The notes under the pieces are model-generated. The model ran no database searches and was not told where the DNA came from. It saw only the letters and a list, made by a program, of their open reading frames with translations. Of a stretch of DNA of 35,721 nt, positions 5,507 to 35,721 are shown piece after piece (within the stretch, counting starts at the first letter, position 1; every line of letters starts with the position of its first letter). Origin of the DNA: Clostridia bacterium (GTDB taxonomy: Bacteria > Bacillota > Clostridia > Oscillospirales > CAG-272). The position numbers and the translations under genes are program-made. Location of the stretch: positions 1 through 35,721 of the forward strand of contig JAFVTS010000012.1 of the NCBI GenBank assembly GCA_017503105.1, in the 5' to 3' direction.

Positions 5507-5561
5507 CTTGAAATTTCCTTCCTTTTTATTTTAAGGTACAAAGAGTTGCCCCTTTGTTAAT

Positions 5562-5590
5562 ATTATACATTTTAAAACCTTAATAATCAA
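5562..5590 (-). promoter_or_regulatory. Sigma-A promoter for the secreted protein gene
   Basis: Minus strand TTGATT (5590-5585), 17-bp spacer, TATAAT (5567-5562), about 55 bp before the start codon. The rest of the 370-bp gap (5507-5876) holds the terminator of the GH2 gene; I see no gene in it. Confidence 0.75.
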
Positions 5591-5796
5591 TGAGATTTTT
5601 GTTCAAAACAATTAAAAAAACTATACTTTTTAGTTTTTGCCCCCCAAAGCACGGTATTTATAACCGCGCAAGAACGGACGAAGATTAAATTCGCTGTGCC
5701 TGTCGGATAGAGACTCCGATCAACAGTTGAGCCGCCGAAACAATTTAAAGCTATCTTTATTTTTTATACTGCGGTGTTTGTACCTAACTGTCGAAA

Positions 5797-5838
5797 AATA
5801 AGAAAACAGGGGGTGCCGTGAAAAAACACAGCACCTCT
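5797..5838 (-). terminator. Intrinsic terminator of the GH2 gene
   Basis: Read leftwards, GGTGCTGTG and CACGGCACC form a nine-pair stem (one G-U) with a short T-rich loop, followed by TGTTTTCTTATTTTT. It lies about 40 bp beyond the GH2 stop codon. Confidence 0.8.
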
Positions 5839-5876
5839 CTGTCTGTAAAAATATATCGGGTAAAAACCGCGGCTCC

Positions 5877-8237: not shown

Positions 8238-8265
8238 AAGAAAAATCTCCTTTTCTGATACTCAA

Positions 8266-8294
8266 ATTATAGCACCCGATATTTACTTTGTCAA
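8266..8294 (-). promoter_or_regulatory. Consensus sigma-A promoter for the GH2 gene
   Basis: Minus strand TTGACA (8294-8289), 17-bp spacer, TATAAT (8271-8266), about 30 bp before the ATG. No operator dyad is evident around it. Confidence 0.85.
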
Positions 8295-8391
8295 TTGAAA
8301 ACCAAGATAATTACAGTAATACAATATCGTTATATTTTTGTTATCAACGAGTAAAAACTATATATGCCTTCTTCCAATTTAAAAGAAAGCA

Positions 8392-8420
8392 TTGAAAAAG
8401 TTTAGAAGATATGTTATAAT
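8392..8420 (+). promoter_or_regulatory. Promoter for the GIY-YIG protein gene
   Basis: TTGAAA (8392-8397), 17-bp spacer, TATAAT (8415-8420), 30 bp before the start codon at 8451. A GTGGAG ribosome site lies in between. Confidence 0.75.
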
Positions 8421-8450
8421 TACTTCAACATACATCAGTGGAGATTAAAA

Positions 8451-9296
8451 ATGATAAATTTATGCAAATTGTTAGAAATAGAAGCTGAAGATTTTAAAAA
8501 ATACAAAGTACACTTTGCAATAGGCAGAGATAACAGAAAAGAACCATATAACACATTTTTAATTGATAATTTCAAAGATTGGCAAGAACGGCAAACATCT
8601 AAAAATTGGAGCAGAAAATATATTCTATCTTTAATATACTACGAAAAGGACATTTGGATGTTTGGCGGTATCTACAAAGTTCTTCCCGTTGCTCCGGTGC
8701 CTATAAATAATGGATCTAATTGGCACGGTTGGAAATATGAGACAGAACTTGTCGACAAAGCGACAGAATACATAGGAAAAGCTTTTTTTAAGTTTAAAAA
8801 AGAGTTTCGAGCGTCATATCCTACGTTGGAATTAGACCCCAAAAACGGAGAACCAATAGCACAAATGCCTTTATCTCATATTCTTGATAAGCGTGTTACA
8901 TTAGCGGATTTCGTTGGATTTGACTCGGTCAATATAAGCTATAAAACGCTGAAATACATTGTTTCAGATAACATTTTATCTTGGAAATCCGCTCTTTCAA
9001 ATATAAAAGGAATTTATTTAATTGTAGATACGAAAACCGGAAAACAATACGTTGGCAGCGCCTATGGTGATGATTGCATTTGGCAACGATGGTCTAATTA
9101 TGCAAAAGACGGTCACGGCGGAAATGCAGAACTAAAAGAACTCATCAAAACAAACGGTATAGACTACAAATACAATTTCAAATATTCAATCCTTGAAGTT
9201 TGCAATATGAATCTTGGTAACGAATATATCATAAGTCGAGAAAAACATTGGAAAGAAGTTTTACTTACACGACAGTTTGGATTAAATTTGAATTAA
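8451..9296 (+). CDS. GIY-YIG nuclease-domain protein
   Basis: A 281-residue protein whose C-terminal third is a GIY-YIG nuclease domain: G187-I-Y, Y200-V-G, the expected arginine at R213 in IWQRW, and the metal-binding glutamate at E264 in SREKHWK, followed by a G-x-N end. All key residues are present, so nuclease activity is plausible. The N-terminal 180 residues form an unrecognised domain (YEKDIWMFGGIYKV, WKYETELV). The gene is clearly more AT-rich than its neighbours and has its own promoter, which suggests acquisition by transfer. Such stand-alone proteins occur in defence or mobile contexts, but no methylase or integrase is adjacent, so the role here is unknown. Confidence 0.8.
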   Translation: MINLCKLLEIEAEDFKKYKVHFAIGRDNRKEPYNTFLIDNFKDWQERQTSKNWSRKYILSLIYYEKDIWMFGGIYKVLPVAPVPINNGSNWHGWKYETELVDKATEYIGKAFFKFKKEFRASYPTLELDPKNGEPIAQMPLSHILDKRVTLADFVGFDSVNISYKTLKYIVSDNILSWKSALSNIKGIYLIVDTKTGKQYVGSAYGDDCIWQRWSNYAKDGHGGNAELKELIKTNGIDYKYNFKYSILEVCNMNLGNEYIISREKHWKEVLLTRQFGLNLN

Positions 9297-22962: not shown

Positions 22963-23184
22963 ATGGGTATCAGCTATAAAAAACTATGGGTTCTCCTTAT
23001 TGAGAAGGATATTACAAGGGCGCAGATGCGCAGAGATTTGAAGATTGCCACGGGTACGATGAGCAAACTTAACAAGGGCGAAGAAGTCGCCTTGTCGGTG
23101 CTTCTCCGTATATGCGAATATTTAGATTGTGACATTGGTGACATCTGCTCTGCTGTTAAGCCGAAAAAGGAGGACACCGTATGA
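22963..23184 (+). CDS. Small Xre/Cro-type transcriptional regulator
   Basis: A 73-residue protein that is almost entirely one helix-turn-helix domain: ISYKKLWVLLIEKDITRAQMRRDLKIATGTMSKLNKGEEVALSVLLRICEYLDCDIGDIC, the pattern of the short HTH_26/Cro group. The ATG at 22963 is chosen because CGAGG lies seven bases upstream; a TTG at 22948 would add five residues. The stop overlaps the next start (ATGA at 23181), so it is translationally coupled to the response regulator. It probably controls this operon or the export locus downstream. Confidence 0.85.
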   Translation: MGISYKKLWVLLIEKDITRAQMRRDLKIATGTMSKLNKGEEVALSVLLRICEYLDCDIGDICSAVKPKKEDTV

Positions 23185-23912
23185 TACAGATTGCAATTTG
23201 CGATGATGAGAAGAAGATACTCGACGAAGTGTCGGGCTACATAAAGAATTATGCAGAAAATAAAAGTGATCTTGACATTGAGGTGTTTCGCTTCGATTCC
23301 GCAAGGACTCTGATCAGCACGTTAGAGGACGGAAAATCCTTCGATATTTTTGTGCTTGACGTTTATATCGGTGATGAAATGGGAACGGAGCTTGCAGATT
23401 GCATCAGAAAAAACGGGATCGAAAGCCCCATTATTTTCGCAACGACCTCGCTTGAACACGCTCCGCAGAGCTATGAAACAGGAACGCTCCGCTATCTCAT
23501 AAAGCCAATCAATCCACGAAAGTTTTACGAGGCATTGGATGCGGCTCTTCTTCAAGTGAAAAGAACCCGCGACCGTTATTTGAAATTCAAGACAGAAAAC
23601 GGTGTTGCGAGCGTAAACGCAAACCACATTATGTACTCGGAAGCGCACGACCATTATCAATATATGAGGAAAGATGATGGCGAAGAAATCAAAGTCAGAA
23701 TGACCGTTACGGAGCTTTTTACAATACTCAGCAGATACGGTGGTTTTGTTCGTATCGGAAGTGCGTATATTGTCAATCTGAGGCACGTTAAGAACGTAAC
23801 TCCGACAAACGTATGCCTATATAACAATTACAAAATTCAAATTCCGAGAGGAAAATTTACCGAGATCAAGAACACCTTTTGGAATTTTCAATGCGAAGGA
23901 CAGGAGGATTAA
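23181..23912 (+). CDS. LytTR-family response regulator
   Basis: A 243-residue AgrA-like regulator. The receiver domain covers residues 1-120 with the acidic pair D8/D9, phospho-acceptor D60 in FVLDVY and the conserved Lys K108 in YLIKPI. A LytTR DNA-binding domain spans about 140-238 (YLKFKTENGVASVNANHIMYSEAHDHYQYM, FVRIGSAYIVNLRHVKNV). LytTR proteins bind two short direct repeats one helical face apart, a layout seen at 25181-25216. It is followed after six bases by its sensor kinase. Such pairs often respond to peptide signals. Confidence 0.93.
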   Translation: MIQIAICDDEKKILDEVSGYIKNYAENKSDLDIEVFRFDSARTLISTLEDGKSFDIFVLDVYIGDEMGTELADCIRKNGIESPIIFATTSLEHAPQSYETGTLRYLIKPINPRKFYEALDAALLQVKRTRDRYLKFKTENGVASVNANHIMYSEAHDHYQYMRKDDGEEIKVRMTVTELFTILSRYGGFVRIGSAYIVNLRHVKNVTPTNVCLYNNYKIQIPRGKFTEIKNTFWNFQCEGQED

Positions 23913-23918
23913 ACGAGC

Positions 23919-25175
23919 ATGACCGGAACTATCGTTGAATTTATACTTTTACTGATCGCTCACGCTGCTGCCGGCATCTATTCCTCTACTCTCAAATACA
24001 GCAAAAAGATTACTTATCTCGTATGGGGCACTTGGGTAGTCCTTCAAACAGGACTTCTGTTCTTTGCGGAATTTGTGCTGACAAATTGGGCGTTGCAGTT
24101 CTTCATTGGATTCGTTCTTTCTCTTGTGGGACAGTATGTAATATTCTTTGCAACCACCAAGGGCAGACTTGCGCAGAGAATCTTTACCATGCTGACCTAT
24201 TCGATCTTTTTCTGCATCGTCATGTCACTCCTTACTATGATAAGCGGCACGTTCAGCGAGTTGCATTGGGCACTTACCTCGCTCATCCAAGCGGTTCTGC
24301 TTTCGGCTATCGTTATCTATTTTCTTCGCTACGTTTGCACCCTTTGTCGGACGGCATCAAAGAACATTAAGGCGGGTTGGGCGCCTTTGATATTTGTGAA
24401 CATTGTCTTTATCATTACCATAATACTGTCCTCGGTATTCCCGGTAAGGCTTACAAGTTTTAACGATCCTGCGGTTATTACATTCGTATTTTTAAGCATT
24501 TCGATCATGGCGGTGTATCCCGTTATCTTCTCAAGCATTAACCATATGTCCGAAGCTGCTGAAAAAAGAGAGATCGAAACACAAAACAAGCTGCTTGTAG
24601 CGCAGATCGAAGCAGAAACTGCACAGCTTGCGGCGGACAGTCAATCAAGACACGATAGACGTCACCACAATCTCATTATGCTTGGCTTGGCGAAAGACGG
24701 AGATTATGAAAGTCTTAAAGAATATCTTGAAAGTCTCGTAGAGGATGATAACAAGGTATGGGGCGAAACAAGATACTGTGAGAATACCACGATAAATATG
24801 ATTTTGACTATGTATAAAAGACGGGCAAAAGAAAACGGTATCTCCGTAAAGATCTCCGCCAAAGCAAGTAATAACCTTGCAATTCCTCCGCAGGATCTCG
24901 TTATTGTAATTGCCAATCTCTTTGAAAATGCGATCAATGCAACCGCAAAACTGAAAGGTAAAGGCAAAAATATTGATATTCAAATTAAAGAAAGCCCCGA
25001 ACGGTTGCTTATTAAGATAGACAATCCGTGCAGGGCAAATCTGAGTTTTGATGAAACGCTCTACGGCATCGGTATTCGCTCGGTGATCACCGCCACGACC
25101 AAGTACGAAGGTATGTACGATTTCACCGCCGAGGACGGTGTGTTTTCCGCCAAAATCATCCTGAATTTGAGGTAA
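23919..25175 (+). CDS. AgrC-like GHKL sensor histidine kinase
   Basis: A 418-residue kinase. About six membrane helices fill residues 5-205, with no large extracellular domain, as in peptide-sensing AgrC-type sensors. A coiled linker leads to the H-box RHDRRHH with H245 as the likely phospho-acceptor. The GHKL ATPase domain includes the N-box IANLFENAINA and the glycine box YGIGIRSVI. It pairs with the LytTR regulator just upstream. A terminator follows. The signal is unknown; no AgrB/AgrD-like gene is seen. Confidence 0.9.
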   Translation: MTGTIVEFILLLIAHAAAGIYSSTLKYSKKITYLVWGTWVVLQTGLLFFAEFVLTNWALQFFIGFVLSLVGQYVIFFATTKGRLAQRIFTMLTYSIFFCIVMSLLTMISGTFSELHWALTSLIQAVLLSAIVIYFLRYVCTLCRTASKNIKAGWAPLIFVNIVFIITIILSSVFPVRLTSFNDPAVITFVFLSISIMAVYPVIFSSINHMSEAAEKREIETQNKLLVAQIEAETAQLAADSQSRHDRRHHNLIMLGLAKDGDYESLKEYLESLVEDDNKVWGETRYCENTTINMILTMYKRRAKENGISVKISAKASNNLAIPPQDLVIVIANLFENAINATAKLKGKGKNIDIQIKESPERLLIKIDNPCRANLSFDETLYGIGIRSVITATTKYEGMYDFTAEDGVFSAKIILNLR

Positions 25176-25180
25176 AAATT

Positions 25181-25216
25181 ACAATCTACGACAAATCAGA
25201 TACATTCTACGACAAA
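25181..25216 (+). promoter_or_regulatory. Candidate LytTR-regulator binding site
   Basis: ACAATCTACGACAAA (25181-25195) and ACATTCTACGACAAA (25202-25216) are direct repeats with a 21-bp period, that is 9-bp cores (ACAATCTAC, ACATTCTAC) spaced by 12 bp. This is the geometry of AgrA-type sites. A possible -10 TATATT lies at 25243-25248, before the export operon. Confidence 0.6.
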
Positions 25217-25240
25217 CTCCCCACATCGGGGAGTTTTTTT
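25215..25240 (+). terminator. Terminator of the regulator operon
   Basis: AACTCCCC (25215-25222), loop ACAT or similar, GGGGAGTT, then a T7 run. It overlaps the end of the candidate LytTR site and the expected -35 region of the next operon. Confidence 0.85.
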
Positions 25241-25318: not shown

Positions 25319-25561
25319 TTGAAGGAAAAGAAGTATACACCGGATGGCTATTTGATCGTATCGGAAATGGATACTTGTTCATTGTGGGAAAAGGATACCA
25401 TTCCTTGTAAATCCGGATGTAATAACCGTTGCTTTTTTTGCAGGTTTGGCGAATTTCGCACACCCGAGTATATAAGATATGCCGAAGAAATGCCTCGAGG
25501 CGAACCACTGCATAGCGTTTGTCGCAACGAGAAAAACAAAAAATCCGCTTCGGATACTTAA
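25319..25561 (+). CDS. Small Cys-rich protein, first gene of the export operon
   Basis: An 80-residue protein starting at TTG 25319, supported by AAAGGAGG nine bases upstream. It has six cysteines: C20, C30, C34, C38, C41 and C68. The cluster C30-x3-C34-x3-C38-x2-C41 contains the CxxxCxxC spacing of radical-SAM enzymes (CNNRCFFC), but the protein is far too short for a radical-SAM barrel. A metal-binding (Zn or Fe-S) domain or a modified peptide substrate are alternatives. It has no signal peptide and no double-Gly leader. It is followed after 13 bp by the first symporter-fold gene. Function unknown. Confidence 0.65.
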   Translation: MKEKKYTPDGYLIVSEMDTCSLWEKDTIPCKSGCNNRCFFCRFGEFRTPEYIRYAEEMPRGEPLHSVCRNEKNKKSASDT

Positions 25562-25574
25562 TTGAGGTGGTAAA

Positions 25575-27146
25575 TTGGAACAATTAGATTTCTCAAACAG
25601 TAATATTGACCTTACATGTGAGGATGTTGGCGCTTTTCTGACATCTGTCGGAGTGGAAAAGCGCGAGGCACTGCGAATCAAGCTCACCCTTGAAGAAATC
25701 CTACTCGATTACCAAGCAAAGTTTGGTAAAGAAGCGACCTTTAATGTCAGATGTGTGAAACGCCTTCTGACGATCAAGGTTGAGTTAATCGTTGCAGGTC
25801 GGGTTTACAACCCTCTTGAAAAAGACGAGGAAGAAAACGCCATAAACGGTATTTTAGCAGGCATCGGTCTTGCTCCCTCATACGGATACCGAAACGGAAA
25901 AAATCATATCATCTTCATCCCCAAGAAAAAACCGTTATCAAGCACGGTTAAAATGGGTGTGGCAATAGGACTTGCCATTATTGCCGGAATACTCCTTAAT
26001 CTTTTGCCCGAAGGAATCAGAGTGGGTGCTAACGAATACGTGCTGACTCCCGTGACCGATGCGTTTATGGGGCTTGTCTCGGCGGTATCTGTTCCTCTGA
26101 TTTTCTTGTCCATCCTTGGTAGCATCTGCTCGATGGGCAACATGGAAACTCTCGGTAAGATCGGCAGCAAGACCATTAAAGTTATTCTTTTGTATATGAC
26201 GGTAATAAGTGTCTTTATGACGGCACTTGGAAGTCTATTCTTTCACGTACAGTGGGGCGGCGGTGGCACATCCGGCTTCTCACAGGTTCTCAATTTGATT
26301 TATAACATCATTCCGTCAAATCTGTTTGAACCCTTTGTAACGGGAAACACTCTGCAACTGATCTTTATTTCCATTATAGTCGGACTTGCAATGCTCGTAC
26401 TTTCATCAAGAGTAAGCAGCGTTTTCAAACTTGTTGAACAGTTTGGCGCCATTGCTCAAACGATTATGTCGGGGCTGTCCTCTATGCTGCCGATTCTGAT
26501 ATTCGTTCTCTTTACAGGAATGATATCCGGCGGAGAGTTCGGCATACTGCTTGAATCGTGGAAGATTATTGCGGTATTCCTACTGTTGATTACGATTTAC
26601 TTCGCACTAACAGTTTTGTACATTGCGTTAAGAAAAAAAGTTTCACCGACATTGCTGCTAAAAAAGACATGGAAGACGCTTGTTATCGCTCTTACCACCG
26701 CATCGTCGGCTGCGGCGTTTCAAAAAAACATTCGTGATGCAAACAAAAAGCTCGGTATTGACAAAAGGCTTGCTGAGTTTGGAACCTCCTTGGGGCAGGT
26801 GCTGTTCAGTCCCACGGATGTCGCCATCCTCCTTGCTATGGAGTTGGGTTTTGCTGAAATGTACGGCATTGCGATCACTCCGCAGTTTCTCATCATTGCA
26901 TTGATTACGAATCTGCTCCTGTCCTTTTCCATCCCTCCCGTACCCGGAGGCTCTGTAATGGGATACACTATTGCATTCACACAGCTTGGTATTCCTATGG
27001 AAGTTTTGGGCGTTGTTCTTGCTTTGGATGCCATTATTGATTTCCCGGCAACAGCGTGCAACGTATCGGGATGGCAGCTTACTATGATCGAGGTCGCAGA
27101 CTCGCTTGATATGCTCGATAAAGAAACACTTCGTAAAGAAAAATGA
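25575..27146 (+). CDS. Degenerate GHKL-ATPase domain fused to a DAACS symporter fold, copy 1
   Basis: A 523-residue two-part protein starting at TTG (GAGGTGG upstream). Residues 1-120 align by pattern with the RsbW-like ATPase encoded at 31812: LTLEEILLDYQAKFG for the N-box helix, GRVYNPLEK for DxGxPYDPL, and YGYRNGKNHIIFIPKK for the last strand. The N-box Asn and G-box Asp are missing. Residues 125-515 have the glutamate/dicarboxylate symporter fold, with a Ser/Thr HP1 loop (ALTTASSAAAF) and the last helix LDAIIDFPATACNVSGW. Compared with GltPh, the NMDGT motif is absent, the substrate Arg397 is Ala (A492) and the sodium ligand Asp405 is Trp (W500), while the amine-binding Asp394 is kept (D489). 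A non-acidic substrate or a sensor role is likely. Confidence 0.8.
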   Translation: MEQLDFSNSNIDLTCEDVGAFLTSVGVEKREALRIKLTLEEILLDYQAKFGKEATFNVRCVKRLLTIKVELIVAGRVYNPLEKDEEENAINGILAGIGLAPSYGYRNGKNHIIFIPKKKPLSSTVKMGVAIGLAIIAGILLNLLPEGIRVGANEYVLTPVTDAFMGLVSAVSVPLIFLSILGSICSMGNMETLGKIGSKTIKVILLYMTVISVFMTALGSLFFHVQWGGGGTSGFSQVLNLIYNIIPSNLFEPFVTGNTLQLIFISIIVGLAMLVLSSRVSSVFKLVEQFGAIAQTIMSGLSSMLPILIFVLFTGMISGGEFGILLESWKIIAVFLLLITIYFALTVLYIALRKKVSPTLLLKKTWKTLVIALTTASSAAAFQKNIRDANKKLGIDKRLAEFGTSLGQVLFSPTDVAILLAMELGFAEMYGIAITPQFLIIALITNLLLSFSIPPVPGGSVMGYTIAFTQLGIPMEVLGVVLALDAIIDFPATACNVSGWQLTMIEVADSLDMLDKETLRKEK

Positions 27147-27155
27147 GGTGATAAA

Positions 27156-28730
27156 TTGGAACAGTATAATTTTTCAAACAGCAATATTGACCTTGCCTGT
27201 GAAGAAGTCGGTGAGTTTCTCGCCAAAGTCGGTGTAGAACGACGCGAGGCTCTCCGAACAAAGCTCACCTTTGAGGAAGTATTGCTTGAATATCAAGCCA
27301 AGTTTGGAGAAGAAGCCACCTTCAAGGTGAGACTTCTGAAACGCCTGTCCTCTATAAAGGTCGAGATCATCGTAGAAGGTGAATCCTACAACGCTCTTGT
27401 CAAAAACAGCGACGAGGGTGACGTGATACAAGGTCTGCTTGCAGGCATCGGTCTTGCTCCTACTTGGAACTACAAGAACGGTAAAAACTACATCGTATTT
27501 ATACCAAAGAAAAAACCGCTGTCCGGCACGGTCAAAATGGTCGGTGCAATCGGACTTGCGGTGATCCTCGGAATTATCTTAAATCTCTTGCCGGACGGAA
27601 TCAGAAGAGGCGCAAACGATTATGTGCTAACACCCGTAACGAATGCGTTTATGGGATTGATTTCAGCCGTATCAGGACCGCTGATCTTCCTATCGGTGCT
27701 CGGCAGTATCTGCTCGATGGGTAATATGGAAACCCTCGGCAAGATCGGAAGTAAGACGATTAAGGTCATCCTTCTTTATATGACGGTAATCGCAGTATTG
27801 ATGACCGCATTCGGCAGCCTGTTTTTCCACATTGAAATGGGTGGCGGCGGAGCATCGAGCTTCTCGCAGATTCTCGATTTGATCTACGACATTATCCCAT
27901 CGAACCTGTTTGAACCCTTTGTAACGGGAAATGCTTTGCAGCTGATCTTCATTTCCATCATGGTCGGACTTGCAATGCTCGTCCTATCGTCGAGAGTAAG
28001 TGGCGTGTTCAAGCTCGTGGAACAGCTCAGCTCCATCGTGCAAACTATTATGTCGGGGCTGTCCTCCTTGTTGCCGATTCTGATATTTGTTCTCTTTACG
28101 GGAATGATTTCAAGCGGTAACCTTGGTGCAATCCTCGATTCTTGGAAGATGATATTAGTCATCGTGCTAATGATTGTAGTTTACTACGTACTGAATCTTC
28201 TGCGAATCTCCCTTATGAAAAAGATACCGCCTGCTTTATTGATGAAGAAAGCGTGGCAGACACTTCTCATTGCACTTACCACCGCATCCTCGGCTGCCGC
28301 GTTCGGTACGAACACCCGTGATGCAAACAAAAAGCTTGGTATTGATAAAAAGCTTGTGGAGTTTGGTACTCCCATCGGTCAAGTGTTGTTTATGCCCGGG
28401 TTTATCGCTTTGCTTTTCGGTATGGAGGCAGGCTTCGCGGAATCCTGCGGTATTCAAATCACTCTGCCGTGGATCATTATATCTCTCATCACAAATCTCT
28501 TGCTATCCTTTGCTATACCGCCTGTGCCGGGAGGTGCTATGATGGGCTTTACGATTGCTTTTGCGCAGCTTGGCATTCCTATGGAGGTCATGGGGGTGGC
28601 TCTTGCGATAAATGCCATCACAGATTTCCCTGCAACAGCGTGCAATGTTTCGGGCTGGCAGCTTACCATGATTGACGTGGCAGACTCGCTTGATATGCTC
28701 GATAAAGAAACCCTACATAAAAATAATTAA
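27156..28730 (+). CDS. Degenerate GHKL-ATPase domain fused to a DAACS symporter fold, copy 2
   Basis: A 524-residue paralogue of the preceding protein, similar along its whole length, with the same TTG start and GAGGTG ribosome site nine bases after the previous stop. The N-terminal domain is again without the ATP-binding residues (EEVLLEYQAKFG, GESYNALVK). In the transporter part, HP1 reads ALTTASSAAAFGTNTRDANKKLGI, the NMDGT position reads FMPGF, and the last helix is AINAITDFPATACNVSGW. D490 is retained, but Arg397 is Ala (A493), Asp405 is Trp (W501) and Asp390 is Asn (N486). The two copies may form a hetero-trimer or handle different ligands. Confidence 0.8.
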   Translation: MEQYNFSNSNIDLACEEVGEFLAKVGVERREALRTKLTFEEVLLEYQAKFGEEATFKVRLLKRLSSIKVEIIVEGESYNALVKNSDEGDVIQGLLAGIGLAPTWNYKNGKNYIVFIPKKKPLSGTVKMVGAIGLAVILGIILNLLPDGIRRGANDYVLTPVTNAFMGLISAVSGPLIFLSVLGSICSMGNMETLGKIGSKTIKVILLYMTVIAVLMTAFGSLFFHIEMGGGGASSFSQILDLIYDIIPSNLFEPFVTGNALQLIFISIMVGLAMLVLSSRVSGVFKLVEQLSSIVQTIMSGLSSLLPILIFVLFTGMISSGNLGAILDSWKMILVIVLMIVVYYVLNLLRISLMKKIPPALLMKKAWQTLLIALTTASSAAAFGTNTRDANKKLGIDKKLVEFGTPIGQVLFMPGFIALLFGMEAGFAESCGIQITLPWIIISLITNLLLSFAIPPVPGGAMMGFTIAFAQLGIPMEVMGVALAINAITDFPATACNVSGWQLTMIDVADSLDMLDKETLHKNN

Positions 28731-28759
28731 AAAAATCATAAAGAAAGAGGTACACTACA

Positions 28760-29056
28760 ATGACCATCGAAAAGAATCTTAACGGAACTGAACTGACTAT
28801 CACCATCGCAGGCAGACTTGACACCACGACCGCACCGCAGCTTGAAGCAGAATTTAAGCAGTCTATTGGCGGCGTAACCAAACTTGTTCTTGATTTTGCG
28901 GAGCTTGAGTATCTTTCTTCCGCAGGACTTCGCGTAATTCTTGCCGCGCAGAAGGTAATGAACAAGCAGGGCGAGATGATCATCAAGAACGTAAACGAAA
29001 CCATCAACGAGATCTTTGAAGTAACGGGCTTCATTGATATTCTGACCATTGAATAA
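28760..29056 (+). CDS. STAS-domain anti-anti-sigma-type protein
   Basis: A 98-residue single STAS domain like RsbV/SpoIIAA: LTITIAGRLDTTTAPQLEAEF, LVLDFAELEYLSSAGLRVIL, and a GEMIIKNVNETINEIFEVTGF end. The phospho-acceptor is most likely S54 in the SSAG loop, aligned with the Ser of DS(S/T)G in RsbV. Such proteins switch partners: the unphosphorylated form binds the RsbW-like kinase, which inactivates it by phosphorylation, and a PP2C phosphatase restores it. Both enzymes are encoded downstream in this operon. The ribosome site is AAGAGGT. Confidence 0.93.
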   Translation: MTIEKNLNGTELTITIAGRLDTTTAPQLEAEFKQSIGGVTKLVLDFAELEYLSSAGLRVILAAQKVMNKQGEMIIKNVNETINEIFEVTGFIDILTIE

Positions 29057-29066
29057 GGTGATAGCA

Positions 29067-30197
29067 ATGAAACTCAAAGACAAAATATTTTCAAACGAGC
29101 AGATTAACACTTCCCGACAACGGGAGTTTGATTTGGCGAGAGCGGTCATAATATTTTGCCTTGCATTAATACACGTTACGATTGAATGTTCGACGGACGA
29201 GGGATTGTGCAGCGGCATTCCATATCTGTTCGATACCGTCATCGGCGGCCCGTTTTCTGCGCCGATGTATATGTTCGTTATGGGTGTTGGAATGTGCTAC
29301 ACAAGAAAGAACTCACCCCTGGAGCATTTTGTAAGAGGCGCAAAGATATTGGCGGTTGGCTATATTCTGAATATCTGCCGATTCCTTATACCGTACTCCA
29401 TCGGCTACGCTATTACGGGCGACTATGGGTATTACATAGAGCCGCTTCTGTATAAGGTGCCGGGCAACGACATTCTCATCTTTGCAGGACTGGCTATGAT
29501 GATTATGGCATTGTTTGTAAAGCTGAAACTTTCAAACATTGTGATGCTTATCATTGCCACCGTAATGTGCGGATTCGGAACACTCCTAAACGGGGTTGAC
29601 GTGGGAACTCCCTTGGAAAATATTTTCCTTGGGTATCTGATTGGCACAGAGGATGCCGCAGGAATGGTTCTTTCCGACTTCCCGATACTGAACTGGCTGA
29701 TGTTCCCGATTTGCGGATATGCTTTCGCATCTGTATTAAAGCGAGTTAAAGACAAAAATCTGTTTTATTTAACCTTTTCGCTCCCTGCGCTTATCATCGC
29801 AATCGTGTATTTCACCTTTGGCATTTACTTTGAGAGAGGTATGTTTGGTGAAGGACAGAATTGCTATTACCACATGATCTTCTCCGATGTTCTCGCAAGC
29901 CTTTGCCTTACCGTCGGTATGGTGGGGGTATATCACTTCATAGTAAAAATCATACCGAAAAAACTCTTTTACATTGCATGGAGCATCAGCGAAAACATCA
30001 CACCGATTTACTTTACCCATTGGGTGCTTGTGTCCTTTGTAGTTAATCTGTGGATGTATGTTATACGCGGAACGACAATTCTGACATCGTGGCAGATAGT
30101 TGGAATTGGCACGGTAATCAGCATAGCAGCCATTGTGATCGCGCATTTCTTCGCAAAATTGACAGGAAGGAGGAAAGTGCATGAGAAAACACCATAA
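29067..30197 (+). CDS. Membrane acyltransferase (acyltransferase-3 / HGSNAT-like)
   Basis: A 376-residue protein with ten or so membrane helices. The N-terminal RQREFDLARAVIIFCLALIHV matches the R-x-x-x-x-D-x-x-R...H pattern of membrane acyltransferases, in which the His in the first helix takes part in acyl transfer. The start is the ATG at 29067, with AAGGTG six bases upstream; a TTG at 29049 would overlap the STAS gene. Such enzymes acylate sugars, lipids or peptides; given the exporter, modification of an exported product or of the envelope is possible. The substrate is unknown. It overlaps the phosphatase gene by 17 bp. Confidence 0.75.
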   Translation: MKLKDKIFSNEQINTSRQREFDLARAVIIFCLALIHVTIECSTDEGLCSGIPYLFDTVIGGPFSAPMYMFVMGVGMCYTRKNSPLEHFVRGAKILAVGYILNICRFLIPYSIGYAITGDYGYYIEPLLYKVPGNDILIFAGLAMMIMALFVKLKLSNIVMLIIATVMCGFGTLLNGVDVGTPLENIFLGYLIGTEDAAGMVLSDFPILNWLMFPICGYAFASVLKRVKDKNLFYLTFSLPALIIAIVYFTFGIYFERGMFGEGQNCYYHMIFSDVLASLCLTVGMVGVYHFIVKIIPKKLFYIAWSISENITPIYFTHWVLVSFVVNLWMYVIRGTTILTSWQIVGIGTVISIAAIVIAHFFAKLTGRRKVHEKTP

Positions 30198-31815
30198 ACT
30201 GCAAAACACGGTCTTACTCAGCTTTACAATACTTGCCGTAGTTTTGGTGCTCGTAATCAGCTTCGTTGTGGGTGACCGTTATATCAGAGGCGAAATGGAG
30301 AATTGCAGAACAACCGCCTACGCATACACGAAATCTGCCGCAGAGCTGATCGACGGTGACAAAATCGCCCATTATCTCGAAACGGGAGAGAAAGACGAAT
30401 ACTATTACGAAATACTCGACTTCCTCAACTCCTTCCGTCTGAATACGGACATTCAGTATTACTATGTGTTCATACCTTTTGAGGATGATCTGGTTTACAT
30501 CTGGGATGCGAATGCTCTGAAACCGGGTGAAACGGCAGAGGACGTTGATTTCTGTGAGCTTGGCTACCGCGAAGAATATATGGAAGGCGGCAAGGAAGCA
30601 ACCTATTCCATCTATAAGCAAAATCCGCCCGAAGAAATCGAGCTTGTCAACGACGATAAGTACGGCTATATCGCCTCCGCATACTCTCCCGTTTTCGACA
30701 GTAACGGTGAGCCGGTAGCGGTTGTGGGTGTTGACGTGTATATGCCCGACCTACAGGAGAATATGCGCGATTTTCTCGTGATTGTTATTGCGGCTATCTT
30801 CCTTGTAGTGCTTGCGGCGATTCTGATGTGCTACTTCTTTGTAAAGCGGAAGATCGTAAATCCCATCAATAAGATTCGTGATACTTCAAAGAGAATGGTC
30901 GAAAATCTCGAAAACGAAGAATCCATTGACGTTTCCGTTAAAACGGGAAATGAAATCGAAGAGTTGTTTGATTCCTTCAAAGAGATGTACAGCGACGTCA
31001 AGGACTATATCAACAGGCTTGGTGCCGTTACTGCTGAAAAGGAACGTATCGGTGCTGAGCTTGACGTTGCAAAACATATTCAAGCTTCGATGCTGCCTTG
31101 CATTTTCCCTGCGTTCCCCGAAAGAAACGAGATTGACATTTACGCAACGATGGAGCCTGCAAAAGAGGTCGGCGGTGACTTCTATGATTTCTTTATGGTA
31201 GATGACACGCACCTTGCCATCGTTATGGCAGACGTTTCGGGCAAGGGCGTGCCCGCAGCTCTCTTTATGGTCATTGGTAAGACATTGATCAAAGACCATA
31301 CCACACCCGGTAGAGACCTTGGAAAGGTATTTACCGAGGTCAATCAGCTCCTTTGCGAATCTAACAGCGAAGAACTCTTTATCACAGCATTTGAGGGTGT
31401 GCTTGACCTTGTGACAGGCGAGTTCGTTTACGTGAACGCGGGACACGAAATGCCCTTTATCTGCAAAGCAGGCGGAGATTTTGAGCCTTATAAGATCCGT
31501 GCGGCATTTGTCCTTGCCGGTATGGAAGGTATGAAATACCGCGCAGGCTCAATGACGCTTGAGCCCGGTGACAAGATCTTCCAGTACACCGACGGTGTAA
31601 CCGAAGCAACAAATGTAAATAATGAGTTATACGGTATGGAAAGACTTGGTACGATTTTGAACAAAGTGAAAAACGGAACACCCCACGATATCCTTCCCGC
31701 AGTTAAGAAGGATATTGACGAGTTTGTAGGCAAAGCACCGCAGTTTGACGATATTACAATGCTTTGTTTGGAATACAAAACCAAAATGGAAATAAAAGAG
31801 GAGGATGCACAATGA
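30181..31815 (+). CDS. Membrane-anchored PP2C/SpoIIE-type phosphatase
   Basis: A 544-residue RsbU-like sensor phosphatase. Helix 1 (about 10-30) and helix 2 (about 198-222) bracket an extracellular sensor domain of about 165 residues with a Cache-like pattern (YYYVFIPFEDDLVYIWDA, ASAYSPVFDSNGEPVAVVGVDV). A HAMP region and coil lead to the phosphatase domain from about 295: DVAKHIQASMLP, EVGGDFYDFF, ADVSGKGVPAALFM and QFDDITML carry the metal-binding Asp residues. It should dephosphorylate the STAS protein in response to an external ligand. The start follows AAGGAGGAAAG. The stop overlaps the kinase start (ATGA). Confidence 0.92.
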   Translation: MRKHHKLQNTVLLSFTILAVVLVLVISFVVGDRYIRGEMENCRTTAYAYTKSAAELIDGDKIAHYLETGEKDEYYYEILDFLNSFRLNTDIQYYYVFIPFEDDLVYIWDANALKPGETAEDVDFCELGYREEYMEGGKEATYSIYKQNPPEEIELVNDDKYGYIASAYSPVFDSNGEPVAVVGVDVYMPDLQENMRDFLVIVIAAIFLVVLAAILMCYFFVKRKIVNPINKIRDTSKRMVENLENEESIDVSVKTGNEIEELFDSFKEMYSDVKDYINRLGAVTAEKERIGAELDVAKHIQASMLPCIFPAFPERNEIDIYATMEPAKEVGGDFYDFFMVDDTHLAIVMADVSGKGVPAALFMVIGKTLIKDHTTPGRDLGKVFTEVNQLLCESNSEELFITAFEGVLDLVTGEFVYVNAGHEMPFICKAGGDFEPYKIRAAFVLAGMEGMKYRAGSMTLEPGDKIFQYTDGVTEATNVNNELYGMERLGTILNKVKNGTPHDILPAVKKDIDEFVGKAPQFDDITMLCLEYKTKMEIKEEDAQ

Positions 31816-32222
31816 AAGAATTAACCATTGCCGCAACAGTAGAAAATATTGAAACTGTTACCGATTTTGTAAACGAGCAGCTTGAAGCACTTGATTGCCC
31901 GATGAAAGCACAGATGCAAATTGATATTGCCATCGACGAGCTTTTCGGCAATATCGCCCACTACGCATACAATCCCGATGTAGGAGAAGCGACCGTTCGC
32001 GTGGAGGTTACCGAAGATCCTCTTGCCGTGGTAATCACCTTTATTGATAACGGTGTACCTTACGATCCGCTTGCAAAGGCTGATCCTAACACCACTCTCT
32101 CCGCTGAGGAAAGAGAGATCGGCGGTCTTGGTATCTTTATGGTAAAGAAAACTATGGACGAGATCGCTTACGAATACAAGGACGGACAGAATATCCTCGC
32201 AATCAAGAAAAATTTGCAATAA
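31812..32222 (+). CDS. RsbW/SpoIIAB-like serine kinase (GHKL ATPase)
   Basis: A 136-residue single-domain ATPase. IDIAIDELFGNIAHYAY carries the N-box Glu and Asn, FIDNGVPYDPL the D-x-G-x-P box, and IGGLGIFMVKKTMD the glycine-rich lid, so ATP binding looks intact. It should phosphorylate the STAS protein at Ser. The ATG at 31812 is chosen for GAGGAGG seven bases upstream; a longer frame begins inside the phosphatase gene. In classic systems it would hold a sigma factor, but none is in the window. Confidence 0.92.
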   Translation: MKELTIAATVENIETVTDFVNEQLEALDCPMKAQMQIDIAIDELFGNIAHYAYNPDVGEATVRVEVTEDPLAVVITFIDNGVPYDPLAKADPNTTLSAEEREIGGLGIFMVKKTMDEIAYEYKDGQNILAIKKNLQ

Positions 32223-32240
32223 AAACGAGGAAGAAAGCCT

Positions 32241-32714
32241 ATGAATCATCAATTATTCAGAAAAAAGAGTGTGGACAAGGTGTCCTCGCCCGAACAATTA
32301 AATGAATACATACGAGTAGCAAATCCCGGTGTTTGGATGGTGCTTGCGGCAATCGTGATTCTGCTTGCAGGTGTAGTCGTTTGGGGCTTTATCGGACACC
32401 TTGACACCACACTTACTACCGCTGTTGTTTGTGAGAACGGTGAGGCTGTTATCTACGTAAAGGAAGCCGATGCAGAGAAAATTGCTATCGGCATGACCGT
32501 TCGTGTGGACGATAAAGAATACACGGTAAGCGAGATTTCCGCAGAACCGAAGCGTGTGGACGATACAATGTCCGAATACGCTGTTCACTTGGGCGGACTT
32601 ACGAGTGGCGAATGGGTATATGTCGTAAGATTGAACGGCGACTTTACCGACGGCGTACAGAAAGCTGAGATCGTTATCGAGACTATCTCTCCCATTTCAT
32701 TTATCTTGAACTGA
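32241..32714 (+). CDS. Short NHLM-type HlyD-like secretion protein
   Basis: A 157-residue protein resembling the N-terminal part of NHLM bacteriocin-system secretion proteins: LFRKKSVDKVSSPEQLNEYIRVANPGVWMVLAAIVILLAGVVVWGFIG gives a conserved head and one membrane helix (about 33-53). A single small beta-barrel/lipoyl-like region follows (VCENGEAVIYVKEADAEKIAIGMTVRV). It is much shorter than usual family members, which carry a coiled-coil hairpin, so it may act only within the single membrane of a Gram-positive cell. It is encoded directly before the exporter gene. Confidence 0.75.
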   Translation: MNHQLFRKKSVDKVSSPEQLNEYIRVANPGVWMVLAAIVILLAGVVVWGFIGHLDTTLTTAVVCENGEAVIYVKEADAEKIAIGMTVRVDDKEYTVSEISAEPKRVDDTMSEYAVHLGGLTSGEWVYVVRLNGDFTDGVQKAEIVIETISPISFILN

Positions 32715-32724
32715 GGTAAAGAAT

Positions 32725-34914
32725 ATGGGAAAGACCAAAGACAAAATAAAAACACCCATCGAGAGGGGTGTTGCCAAGGTTCCCGTCGTAATGCAGATGG
32801 AGGCACTTGAATGTGGTGCGGCATCGCTTACGATGATCTTGGCGTATTACGGAAAATGGATACCGCTTGAGCAGGTACGCGCGGATTGCGGCGTTTCCCG
32901 TGACGGCTCTAACGCCAAAAACGTACTCAAAGCGGCACGAAGCTACGGTCTTACCGCAAAGGGCTATCGCTATGAGCCGGACGAGCTGAAAAGATGCGGA
33001 AAATTCCCCTGTATCATTCATTGGAACTTCAATCACTTCCTCGTGCTTGACGGTTTCAAAGGAAACAAGGCGGTTCTGAACGATCCTGCAAAGGGAACGT
33101 ATAGCGTACCGATGGAAACCTTCGACAATTCCTTTACGGGCATTTGTCTGATGTTTGAGCCCGACGATTCCTTTGAACCCGGCGGTAAACCCAAGAATAT
33201 GCTTGCTTTTGCCAAGGAAAAGATGCGTGGCGCAGGTGTTGCCGTGGCGTTCACTATCATAACTACGGTAATCACCTCGCTAATCGGTATCATAAACCCC
33301 GCTTTTTCACGAATTTTCATCGACCGATTGCTCACAGGACAGAACCCCGATTGGTTTATGCCGTTTATTTGGGCGCTAACTGCACTTTCGACGGTACAGA
33401 TCATTATCTCCTTCATTGAGGCGATATTTGAAGCGCGTATCAGCGCAAAGATCGATGCGGTAGGTAGCACTACCTTTATGTGGAAGGTGCTTCGTATGCC
33501 GATGGAATTCTTTTCGCAGAGAATGGCAGGCGACATTCAACAGCGCAAGGGCTCTAACGCATCGGTTGCTTCCACACTTGTGCATACCTTTGCACCTCTT
33601 GTGATTGAGGCGTGCATGATGGTGTTCTACCTTGTGGTTATGATCCGTTACAGCCTCCTTCTGACACTCGTTGGAATCGCATCCATACTCATCAATATGT
33701 TTATGTCCCGTATTATCTCGAAAAAGCGTGTGAACATCACCCGTGTTTCTATGCGTGACTCGGGTAAACTCGCAGGCGCGACCGTGGCAGGCATCGAAAT
33801 GATCGAAACCATTAAAGCAAGCGGTGCTGAAAACGGCTTCTTTGAGAAATGGGCAGGCTATCAGGCAAGCGTGAACACACAGAAGGTCAAGTTTGCAAAG
33901 CTGAATCAGTATCTCGGTATGGTTCCGTCACTCGTATCTACGCTGACAAACACCGCCGTGCTTATAATCGGTGTGTATCTGACGATGGAGGGCAGCTTCA
34001 CCGTTGGTATGGTGATGGCGTTCCAAGGCTTCCTCGGTTCGTTTATGGCACCTGCCGGACAGCTTATTTCCGCAGGTCAGACCTTGCAGGAGATGCGTGC
34101 CGAGATGGAACGTATCGAGGACGTTATGAAATATCCCACCGACGTCCTTTGCGAACAGGCGGCGGATGAGGGTGAAGATGCAGAGTATGACAAGCTCTCG
34201 GGTAACGTGGAAATGCGAAACGTGACCTTTGGCTACTCCCGTCTTGGTGAGCCGCTGATTCGTGACTTCAACCTTACCTTGCGCCCCGGAAGCCGTGTTG
34301 CTTTCGTTGGTACTTCGGGATGCGGAAAGTCAACGCTGTCCAAGCTCATTTCGGGACTTTATCAGCCGTGGAGTGGTGAAATCCTCTTTGACGGCAAGCC
34401 AATGACAAAGATTGACCGAAGCGTGTTTACAGGATCGCTTGCGGTGGTTGACCAAGATATTATTCTTTTCGAGGACACGATTGCCAACAACATCAAAATG
34501 TGGGATAGCTCCATCGAGGACTTTGAAATGATTATGGCGGCGAGGGACGCACAGCTCCACGAGGACATTATGCAGCGTGACGGCGGCTATAACTACAAGC
34601 TTACCGAGGGCGGTAAGGATTTCTCGGGCGGTCAGCGTCAGAGAATCGAAATCGCGCGAGTGCTTGCACAAGATCCCACGATCATCATCCTTGACGAGGC
34701 AACATCGGCTCTTGATGCCAAGACCGAATATGAGGTCGTAAAGTCCATCAAGGACAGAGGAATTACCTGCATCGTTGTTGCTCACCGTCTTTCCACCATA
34801 CGTGACTGCGACGAGATCATCGTAATGGATCACGGCAACGTGGTCGAGCGCGGAACACACGAAGAACTTTATGCTCAAGACGGCTTCTATACGAAGCTCG
34901 TCACGAGCGATTAA
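32725..34914 (+). CDS. NHLM-type peptide exporter: C39 peptidase-ABC transporter
   Basis: A 729-residue peptidase-containing ABC transporter. An N-terminal C39 peptidase has oxyanion Gln Q24, catalytic C30 (LECGAAS), H104 (NFNHFLV) and D120 (LNDPAKG), all intact. A six-helix membrane domain covers about 165-450. The ATPase has Walker A GTSGCGKST (529-537), signature FSGGQRQRIEIARVL and Walker B IIILDEATSALD. Such proteins cut a leader (usually double-Gly) from a peptide while exporting it. The layout, with a second ABC subunit next to it, matches nitrile-hydratase-leader-microcin (NHLM) systems. No substrate peptide is recognised in the window. Confidence 0.93.
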   Translation: MGKTKDKIKTPIERGVAKVPVVMQMEALECGAASLTMILAYYGKWIPLEQVRADCGVSRDGSNAKNVLKAARSYGLTAKGYRYEPDELKRCGKFPCIIHWNFNHFLVLDGFKGNKAVLNDPAKGTYSVPMETFDNSFTGICLMFEPDDSFEPGGKPKNMLAFAKEKMRGAGVAVAFTIITTVITSLIGIINPAFSRIFIDRLLTGQNPDWFMPFIWALTALSTVQIIISFIEAIFEARISAKIDAVGSTTFMWKVLRMPMEFFSQRMAGDIQQRKGSNASVASTLVHTFAPLVIEACMMVFYLVVMIRYSLLLTLVGIASILINMFMSRIISKKRVNITRVSMRDSGKLAGATVAGIEMIETIKASGAENGFFEKWAGYQASVNTQKVKFAKLNQYLGMVPSLVSTLTNTAVLIIGVYLTMEGSFTVGMVMAFQGFLGSFMAPAGQLISAGQTLQEMRAEMERIEDVMKYPTDVLCEQAADEGEDAEYDKLSGNVEMRNVTFGYSRLGEPLIRDFNLTLRPGSRVAFVGTSGCGKSTLSKLISGLYQPWSGEILFDGKPMTKIDRSVFTGSLAVVDQDIILFEDTIANNIKMWDSSIEDFEMIMAARDAQLHEDIMQRDGGYNYKLTEGGKDFSGGQRQRIEIARVLAQDPTIIILDEATSALDAKTEYEVVKSIKDRGITCIVVAHRLSTIRDCDEIIVMDHGNVVERGTHEELYAQDGFYTKLVTSD

Positions 34915-34926
34915 GGAGGTGACAGT

Positions 34927-35721
34927 ATGGGTTGGTTTGACGAACAAATAAAACAAAGAAAGAAAAACGACGAGGATCTGTTCTCTGAAGCGTTCGTAGG
35001 CATTGCCGATGCGGTGCTTGGCTCAAAGATGAGCGCAGCATTTACAAACGACGAGGCAAAGGCACAGGGCGCAATCGAAGAAATCCTCAAATACTATCAC
35101 GTAAAACCCCGTGAAGTTCCCGATTCTGTCAAGGGCCTCCACGACCGTCTTGAATACCTCCTCCGTCCTAACGTCATTATGCGCCGTAACGTGAATTTGG
35201 AGAAGGGTTGGTACAAGGATGCCATCGGTGCGGTACTTGGCACACGCAAGGACGATGGCAGCGTGGTCGCATTTATCCCCAAAGGTCTATCCGGCTACGT
35301 TTATTTCGATGCTCCCACGGGCAAGTGGGTGAAGCTGAATAAGAAGAACGAATCACTTTTTGAGGACGAAGGCATCTGCTTTTATAAGCCGTTCCCACTT
35401 GGAAAGCTCACGCTTCGCTCCTTAATGAGGTATATAATCGAAACGCTTTCCATGGCGGATTTCGTGCTGATCGCTCTGGCAACTCTGGCTATCACTCTCT
35501 TAGGACTTCTTGGTCCTAAGCTCAACAATCTCCTTATGGGAACTGTCGTAGAGAGCAAAAACTATCAGCTTCTCATCGGCATTACGGTATTTATGATAAG
35601 CGTTAGCATCAGTACGATGCTGATCACATCGGTAAAATCTCTCTTGATGGCGCGGATCAATACCAAAATGTCTTTGTCGGTGCAGGCGGCAACTATGATG
35701 CGTGTGCTGTCCTTACCTGCC
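34927..35721 (+). CDS. NHLM-type second ABC exporter subunit (3' truncated)
   Basis: The first 265 residues of a longer protein, open to the window end. The ATG at 34927 follows AAGGAGGTGA. Residues 1-175 form a soluble N-terminal region (KGWYKDAIGAVLGTRKDDGSVVAFIPKGLSGYVYFD), as in the NHLM ATP-binding partner that replaces the C39 domain with an unrelated module. Membrane helices then begin (DFVLIALATLAITLLGLL). The ATPase part lies beyond the window. It probably pairs with the C39-containing transporter as a heterodimer. Confidence 0.85.
   Translation, partial: MGWFDEQIKQRKKNDEDLFSEAFVGIADAVLGSKMSAAFTNDEAKAQGAIEEILKYYHVKPREVPDSVKGLHDRLEYLLRPNVIMRRNVNLEKGWYKDAIGAVLGTRKDDGSVVAFIPKGLSGYVYFDAPTGKWVKLNKKNESLFEDEGICFYKPFPLGKLTLRSLMRYIIETLSMADFVLIALATLAITLLGLLGPKLNNLLMGTVVESKNYQLLIGITVFMISVSISTMLITSVKSLLMARINTKMSLSVQAATMMRVLSLPA

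Follow-up and report, generated by a model that had tools for sequence, protein, structure and literature searches.

Partner switches are best known for controlling sigma factors. One that acts on a different kind of target has been described in Pseudomonas aeruginosa, where SiaABCD is reported to act on the diguanylate cyclase SiaD (PMC7647112, PMC8457831). Transport proteins have been tied to signalling domains as well. The SDF transporter DctA of Escherichia coli is reported to be coupled to the signalling kinase DcuS and to the STAS-bearing transporter DauA, and DauA and DctA contact each other via their membrane domains, not STAS (PMC5703999); SLC26/SulP transporters carry a C-terminal STAS domain (PMC8256260). 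None of the matches listed in our literature search, mostly outside subscription journals, reports an RsbW-type domain on an SDF, ABC or MATE transporter, or the control of a transporter by a dead anti-sigma kinase domain. Here we describe two adjacent genes of a gut Clostridia bacterium (assembly GCA_017503105.1, genome 2.6 Mb) in which a degenerate RsbW-like domain is fused to the N terminus of an SDF symporter-fold protein. They lie on contig JAFVTS010000012.1, whose whole length of 35,721 bases is the window analysed here. Judging from sequence comparisons, we give a probability of about 0.52 to the reading that this catalytically dead domain is a cytoplasmic docking site for the STAS protein of a partner switch with no sigma factor at the locus, and that it gates transport.

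The two open reading frames (ORFs), fusion 1 (window positions 25575-27146, 523 amino acids [aa]) and fusion 2 (27156-28730, 524 aa), are on the forward strand, have TTG start codons, are each preceded by GAGGTG(G/A)TAAA and are paralogues with 75% identity. The SDF domain (PF00375) begins at residue 130 in fusion 1 and residue 127 in fusion 2, scores 211.7 and 211.9 bits against a cut-off of 27.9 and spans nearly the entire profile (2e-62). Each gene can be divided into a degenerate RsbW-like domain (25575-25940 in fusion 1, 27156-27524 in fusion 2) and a linker plus SDF domain of the SLC1 fold (25941-27146 and 27525-28730). In a Pfam search residues 1-122 of both proteins matched no family, and single-sequence searches of Pfam and PDB with the window's N-terminal domain alone gave nothing useful.

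The relationship of this domain emerged when its relatives were considered together. A profile of 28 diverse N-terminal domains of SDF fusions (profile A3) aligned with 15 intact RsbW sequences at 97.6% by hhalign over 112 columns. The decoys, 21 other families assembled from proteins of these loci, stayed at or below 9.9%, 30 column-shuffled copies of A3 at or below 2.6%, and the STAS and PP2C profiles reached 0.5% and 0.4%. HATPase_c_2 was matched by 9 of the 28 domains at E values of up to 1 (2.3e-5 for the best), whereas any other Pfam family was matched by a single domain at most. Three domains of an earlier set of nine matched HATPase_c_2 in the correct register (1e-4, 0.003 and 0.005), with scores of 17.2 to 22.8 bits that lie under the gathering score of 27.4 for this family (PF13581). 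When whole genomes were searched, the fusion profiles also retrieved stand-alone RsbW-type ORFs, three of them inspected as sequences (L031, 2.7e-5; L033, 1.6e-4; L035, 7e-4); the search of the class with A3 returned ten RsbW-sized ORFs (134-197 aa, 4e-6 to 1e-3), of which one is the L033 gene and the other nine were classed by size. The 28 domains have diverged strongly, with four invariant columns, and all end in a closing Y-x(2-3)-x-N motif. All 15 RsbW proteins of these loci have the corresponding Y..GxN, and it is missing from two SpoIIAB-type proteins that we inspected, which suggests that the dead domain resembles the kinase of its own operon; a relationship to SpoIIAB in particular was dropped for this difference in the closing motif. 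At the level of sequence profiles, residues 1-122 of both window proteins were confirmed as a degenerate RsbW/HATPase_c_2 domain. An earlier note on this DNA, made from its letters alone, had read the first 120 or so residues as RsbW-like and proposed a profile comparison with HATPase_c_2 families; that comparison supports the relation, and the closing GxNxI strand is as the note described it. Its NPL motif occurs in the first protein, but the second reads NAL.

In GHKL enzymes the Asn of the N-box and the Asp of the G1 box are ATP-Mg ligands. Both were found in all 15 intact RsbW sequences, whereas the N-box Asn occurs in 1 of the 28 SDF N-domains and the G1 Asp in none (0/28); in the 39 ABC tails described below the counts are 1/39 and 0/39. 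Most SDF N-domains retain the two acidic residues of the N-box helix (E40 in 28/28, E41 in 25/28) and the Gly of G1 (G75 in 26/28). Because both ligands are missing, ordinary Mg-ATP binding is unlikely: the sequences speak against it for the SDF-fusion N-domains, whose kinase activity is predicted to be dead. The N-box column holds Asp45 in fusion 1 and Glu45 in fusion 2, just as had been noted before. The G1 Asp, previously given as Ala or Glu, falls in a column that is Val in both proteins (Val73 in fusion 1), and the Ala or Glu sits one column on. The pseudokinase assignment itself is supported by the profile comparison and by ligand loss across the 28-member family.

We then examined the surroundings of related fusions. 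Six full-length fusions (A2) used as query gave 71 named loci, of which 67 carry a fusion by hidden Markov model (HMM), a share biased by the fusion query; the other four (L140, L150, L151, L152) were excluded. A second set of 30 loci, less three without a fusion by HMM (L056, L058, L192), left 27, and the two sets were counted apart, with three apparent shared places (L045/L084, L048/L126 and L049/L114). Linkage was scored as at least one of STAS, PP2C and RsbW within 10 kb of the fusion by HMM. A switch gene was linked at 30 of the 67 named loci, at 21 of the 38 that span at least 15 kb, and at 9/27 loci of the second set (8/16 of its long loci), compared with 1/30 unfused SDF controls and 1/28 of the long ones (Fisher p of 4.5e-6 for 21/38 versus 1/28, with related loci and kinship ignored). 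These counts leave out the RsbW flags of L089, L094 and L130, which are pieces of broken or frame-split fusions (33 became 30/67 and 23 became 21/38), and retain L117, flagged for STAS through a 417-aa STAS fusion protein. The sole linked control (L166) has STAS and RsbW plus a sigma ORF and resembles a sporulation operon. A search with five sigma queries taken from the window's genome, which cover the extracytoplasmic function (ECF) type poorly, found no sigma-70-type ORF in the window or at any of the 101 loci retrieved for fusions (94 of which hold one by HMM), a negative that is compatible with a sigma partner encoded elsewhere. PF04542 matched at seven places in the window's genome, none of them on the window contig; on another contig (C21) a HATPase_c_2 gene adjoins a sigma gene, as expected for SpoIIAB-SigF. 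Gene order at the fusion loci is compact and varied: STAS-fusion-PP2C-RsbW (L126, L128), PP2C-fusion-STAS-RsbW (L043), or fusion-STAS-PP2C/RsbW with the last two as a single polypeptide (L137). Overlap lengths at these related loci were taken from the longest reading frame and are possibly overestimated.

Similar domains were also found on other transporters. The C-terminal domain of 39 ABC ATPases, many of them close relatives, aligned by hhalign at 97.1% with the SDF N-domain (101 columns) and at 96.3% with RsbW, against a maximum of 3.5% for 30 shuffles. The carriers are separate proteins of 363-386 aa or form the end of larger polypeptides (up to 1147 aa), one of which (L125) contains SBP_bac_3, BPD_transp_1 and ABC_tran by Pfam. 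An ABC ATPase at L218 also has the C-terminal domain. Such a tail is present at 35 of the 67 named fusion loci, in many cases within the operon of the fusion and often with a few-base overlap with the neighbouring gene, and its profile (A4) matched 13 of 197 genomes of the order, two of them through SDF N-domains only (2.2e-5 and 5e-4). Two ABC exporters of about 700 aa, with ABC_membrane and ABC_tran domains, carry a degenerate RsbW-like domain at the N terminus (L192:8136-10226 on the reverse strand and L207:2445-4559 on the forward strand). Furthermore, MATE proteins with a C-terminal RsbW-type domain (MatE by Pfam) were found at seven loci (L054, L131, L135, L150, L210, L211 and L216). The N-box Asn is intact in two of these (L150:7447-9330 and L054:11269-13050) and lost in two others (L135:15212-16966 and L131:19342-21009), so the MATE-linked domains possibly form a series from live to dead kinase.

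The SDF half of the fusions differs from its unfused relatives. We compared the columns of N310, D312 and D405 (GltPh numbering), which we take to be the sodium-site residues of the NMDGT motif and the Asp of transmembrane helix 8 (TM8); these columns agree with an alignment to a solved aspartate transporter. Across 123 distinct fusions, F or Y occupies the N310 column in 111 and N in 8; the D312 column has P in 111 and D in 5, and the D405 column has L in 97 and D in 5, whereas 30 unfused SDF proteins of the class mostly keep N (23, with H in 5), D (21) and D (27), respectively. All three residues are kept in 5/123 fusions, and the window proteins have F/P/W. The HP2 segment reads PP(V/I)PG in fusions and mostly (A/S)G(V)PG in unfused relatives. 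A midpoint-rooted FastTree tree of 74 sequences places 41/41 degenerate fusions in a single clade (support 0.845) that contains no unfused protein. The five fusions that keep all three residues cluster elsewhere, and two that have N/Q/T are placed next to the degenerate clade. The tree indicates that the SDF fusion arose more than once, or that the core decayed after fusion.

The occurrence of the domain on several kinds of transporter, the presence of PP2C, STAS or RsbW genes at many fusion loci and the failure to find a sigma gene there together suggest that the switch acts on transport at these loci. RsbW binds its STAS protein, so a STAS protein would be the natural ligand of the pseudokinase domain. 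In such a system, a membrane PP2C phosphatase, as the input, and an intact RsbW kinase would set the phosphorylation state of the STAS protein. Rather than trapping RsbW and so releasing a sigma factor, or in addition to doing so, unphosphorylated STAS would bind the pseudokinase domains of the SDF proteins, and in relatives also those of ABC-importer ATPases and other transporters; binding would gate transport post-translationally. We infer STAS as the ligand, phosphorylation-dependent binding and transport as the output. A wider version of this proposal, for which we would put the odds slightly below even, is of a sigma-free switch in Clostridia and some Spirochaetales that directly controls the transport of nutrients and other substances, in which STAS docks on dead RsbW domains at the N terminus of SDF proteins, the C terminus of ABC-importer ATPases and the N terminus of ABC exporters, and on intact or dead ones at the C terminus of MATE proteins, the SDF member being a noncanonical, probably sodium-independent transporter or a receptor.

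Several observations weigh against the docking-and-gating reading. None of the three switch genes is present in the stretch covered at 37/67 named loci (17/38 of those of at least 15 kb) or at 18/27 loci of the second set. The fusion loci are related, 44 of the 71 records being titled Lachnospiraceae or Oscillospiraceae, and the linkage p value ignores kinship; the HMMs, built up from proteins of the window, may also lose sensitivity in distant controls. In the search with the fusion 1 N-domain the fusion proved sparse within the genus (2/59 other genomes, G008 and G052), and no ABC tail was found in the window's own genome with the A4 profile. No RsbW chain came up when A3 was searched as an HMM against PDB sequences, so the similarity is visible only with relatives or by profile-profile comparison. 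The N-box persists in some of the domains on MATE proteins, so loss of catalysis does not extend to all transporters. Finally, as the SDF core lacks the known sodium-site residues in nearly all fusions, gating of transport would presume an unknown mode of transport. The earlier note had assumed a symporter that transports and had proposed that the domain could dock the STAS protein and so tie transport to the partner switch. The tie to the switch gains from linkage in about half of the long loci, from no sigma gene having been found there and from the similar domains on other transporters. The assumed transport is less certain, given the loss of the sodium-site residues: the core may transport, sense or do both.

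Because of that loss we keep as a serious, if unlikely, rival the possibility that the SDF domain is a nutrient receptor, transceptor-like with transport lost or uncoupled, whose pseudokinase would capture or release STAS, or compete with RsbW for it, according to ligand occupancy and so pass the external nutrient status on to the switch. This would fit the absence of N310, D312 and D405 from nearly all fusions versus their retention in most of the 30 unfused proteins, as well as the single clade of 41 degenerate fusions. It fits less well with the five fusions that keep all three residues, and with the similar domains on ABC-importer ATPases and on exporters with ABC_tran, which resemble working pumps. 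Less probable by a clear step is that the N-domain pairs through its dimer surface with the intact RsbW kinase, not with STAS, and so tethers the kinase to the transporter at the membrane. RsbW and SpoIIAB proteins are dimers, and the domain is homologous to and co-occurs with intact RsbW; however, four loci (L091, L121, L123, L136) have STAS and PP2C with no RsbW in the stretch.

We consider it a little more doubtful again that the N-domain has lost partner binding and persists as a structural or small-molecule-binding appendage, its linkage to switch genes being inherited history. The strong divergence, with its four invariant columns, and the 37 named loci with no switch gene in view would agree with this, but the recurrence of such domains on transporters of the SDF, ABC-importer, ABC-exporter and MATE kinds (both ABC kinds share an ATPase) and the tight gene runs, frequently with overlaps, argue for a shared function. 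That the RsbW resemblance is a coincidence seems very improbable: although the window domains have no Pfam match and the PDB search returned no RsbW chain, the hhalign result against decoys and shuffles, the HATPase_c_2 matches in 9/28 domains and the reciprocal genome matches argue otherwise.

The fusion recurs patchily in Clostridia, with a few records from other groups. In a search of 98 genomes, including the window's own, with the N-domain of fusion 1, seven had a match, one of them (G040, locus L009) a chance match; L009 and L036 were both judged chance on inspecting the sequences. With profile A1, 26 of 394 genomes of the order matched at E values of up to 0.001, 13 of them with SDF fusions and the other 13 with RsbW-type, MATE, ABC or STAS-kinase proteins or by chance (by inspection, partly with Pfam). 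Profile A3 matched 31/391 genomes of the class and 15/398 of the phylum, sets that overlap and matches that include nonfusions. A search with the SDF family matched 13/59 genomes of the order at 20 places, comprising 10 unfused proteins, 8 complete fusions, one contig-cut fusion and an unclassified cut piece. It also matched 46/148 genomes of the class, where six places have fusion-sized frames of 526-559 aa plus an A3 N-domain match; at the remaining places with a match to most of the profile, the frames measure 389-471 aa. By their titles, which belong to assembled genomes and can be wrong, the 71 named records comprise 23 Lachnospiraceae, 21 Oscillospiraceae, three Spirochaetales or Spirochaetaceae, one each of Coriobacteriaceae, Selenomonadaceae and Methanocorpusculaceae, and one Sphingopyxis record without a fusion; the rest are other Clostridia-type or unspecific. 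In several Lachnospiraceae-type records a second fusion gene is split into pieces (L089:12097-13230, L094:12096-13145, L101:7439-9009 and L103:12214-13676).

In the window the fusions open a tight run of eight genes on the forward strand (25575-34914) with intergenic gaps of -17 to +29 bases. PP2C, STAS and RsbW are encoded together there (28760-32222). Fusion 2, 9 bases after fusion 1, is followed after 29 bases by a single-domain STAS protein (28760-29056), the candidate ligand of the pseudokinase domain, with Ser54 at what is presumably the usual phosphoacceptor position; Ser stands in this column in 40/40 aligned STAS proteins. A membrane acyltransferase (Acyl_transf_3 by Pfam, 29049-30197) overlaps both of its neighbours, by 8 and 17 bases. 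The SpoIIE-type PP2C phosphatase (30181-31815; SpoIIE 1.3e-43) has an N-terminal membrane part and a weak HAMP match (1.3e-4, under its cut-off), and is the candidate input of the switch. It overlaps by 4 bases an intact RsbW-like kinase (31812-32222) with N-box Asn, DxG and GGxG. After 18 bases comes a 157-aa protein (32241-32714), residues 13-58 of which match positions 1-46 of the NHLP HlyD-type secretion protein, and 10 bases later the final complete gene of the run, an NHLP-type peptidase/ABC exporter (32725-34914; TIGR03796, above cut-off). A further reading frame begins just past this exporter and runs off the contig (in window 32241-35721). Upstream of the run stands a terminator-like hairpin (25214-25236), weak evidence alone since the region holds 22 such sites against 10.8 expected; it separates the run from a LytTR response regulator and a HATPase_c_5 sensor-kinase-like protein directly upstream (23181-25175). 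An 80-aa Cys-containing ORF with a TTG start (25319-25561, forward strand) lies between the hairpin and fusion 1.

Other gene arrangements were seen at related loci. At L091 a 1418-aa single-module nonribosomal peptide synthetase (4230-8486; condensation, AMP-binding, carrier and reductase domains by Pfam) lies between STAS and PP2C, and at L121, L123 and L136 one is inferred only from a similar gap size. STAS domains are also fused to an APH-type kinase and to a protein with a weak methyltransferase match (L110:4394-5578 and 5957-7309, reverse strand), and L212:936-2537 encodes a STAS-APH-HATPase_c_2 triple fusion.

If the docking-and-gating reading holds, these bacteria may switch transport directly, not via gene expression. 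Several transport systems could then be opened or closed at once post-translationally, recurrently in gut Clostridia. This would give a purpose to the sigma-less PP2C/STAS/RsbW sets in these genomes, and the question of the STAS partner would become a simple binding experiment.

The fusions share features with several known systems and differ from each. With the RsbW/SpoIIAB anti-sigma kinases (HATPase_c_2, PF13581) their N-domains share homology over 112 profile columns, the N-box Glu, the G-x-x-(Y/F)-(D/N)-P segment and the closing GxN strand, but they are without the ATP ligands, have a shorter G2 region and are fused to a transporter, and no sigma gene was found at the locus. SDF/DAACS (SLC1-fold) symporters such as GltPh, DctA and GltP share the PF00375 match; unlike them, the fusions have an extra N-terminal domain, replaced sodium-site residues and an altered HP2. 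The DctA-DcuS and DauA-DctA pairs are separate proteins, with a two-component kinase, and SLC26/SulP proteins likewise are transport proteins bearing a partner-switch domain, although there it is the STAS half and here the kinase half that sits on the transporter. SiaABCD combines a PP2C phosphatase, a kinase and an anti-sigma-antagonist-like protein as a partner switch on a non-sigma target; that target is SiaD, whereas the candidates proposed here are transporters bearing a dead copy of the kinase domain.

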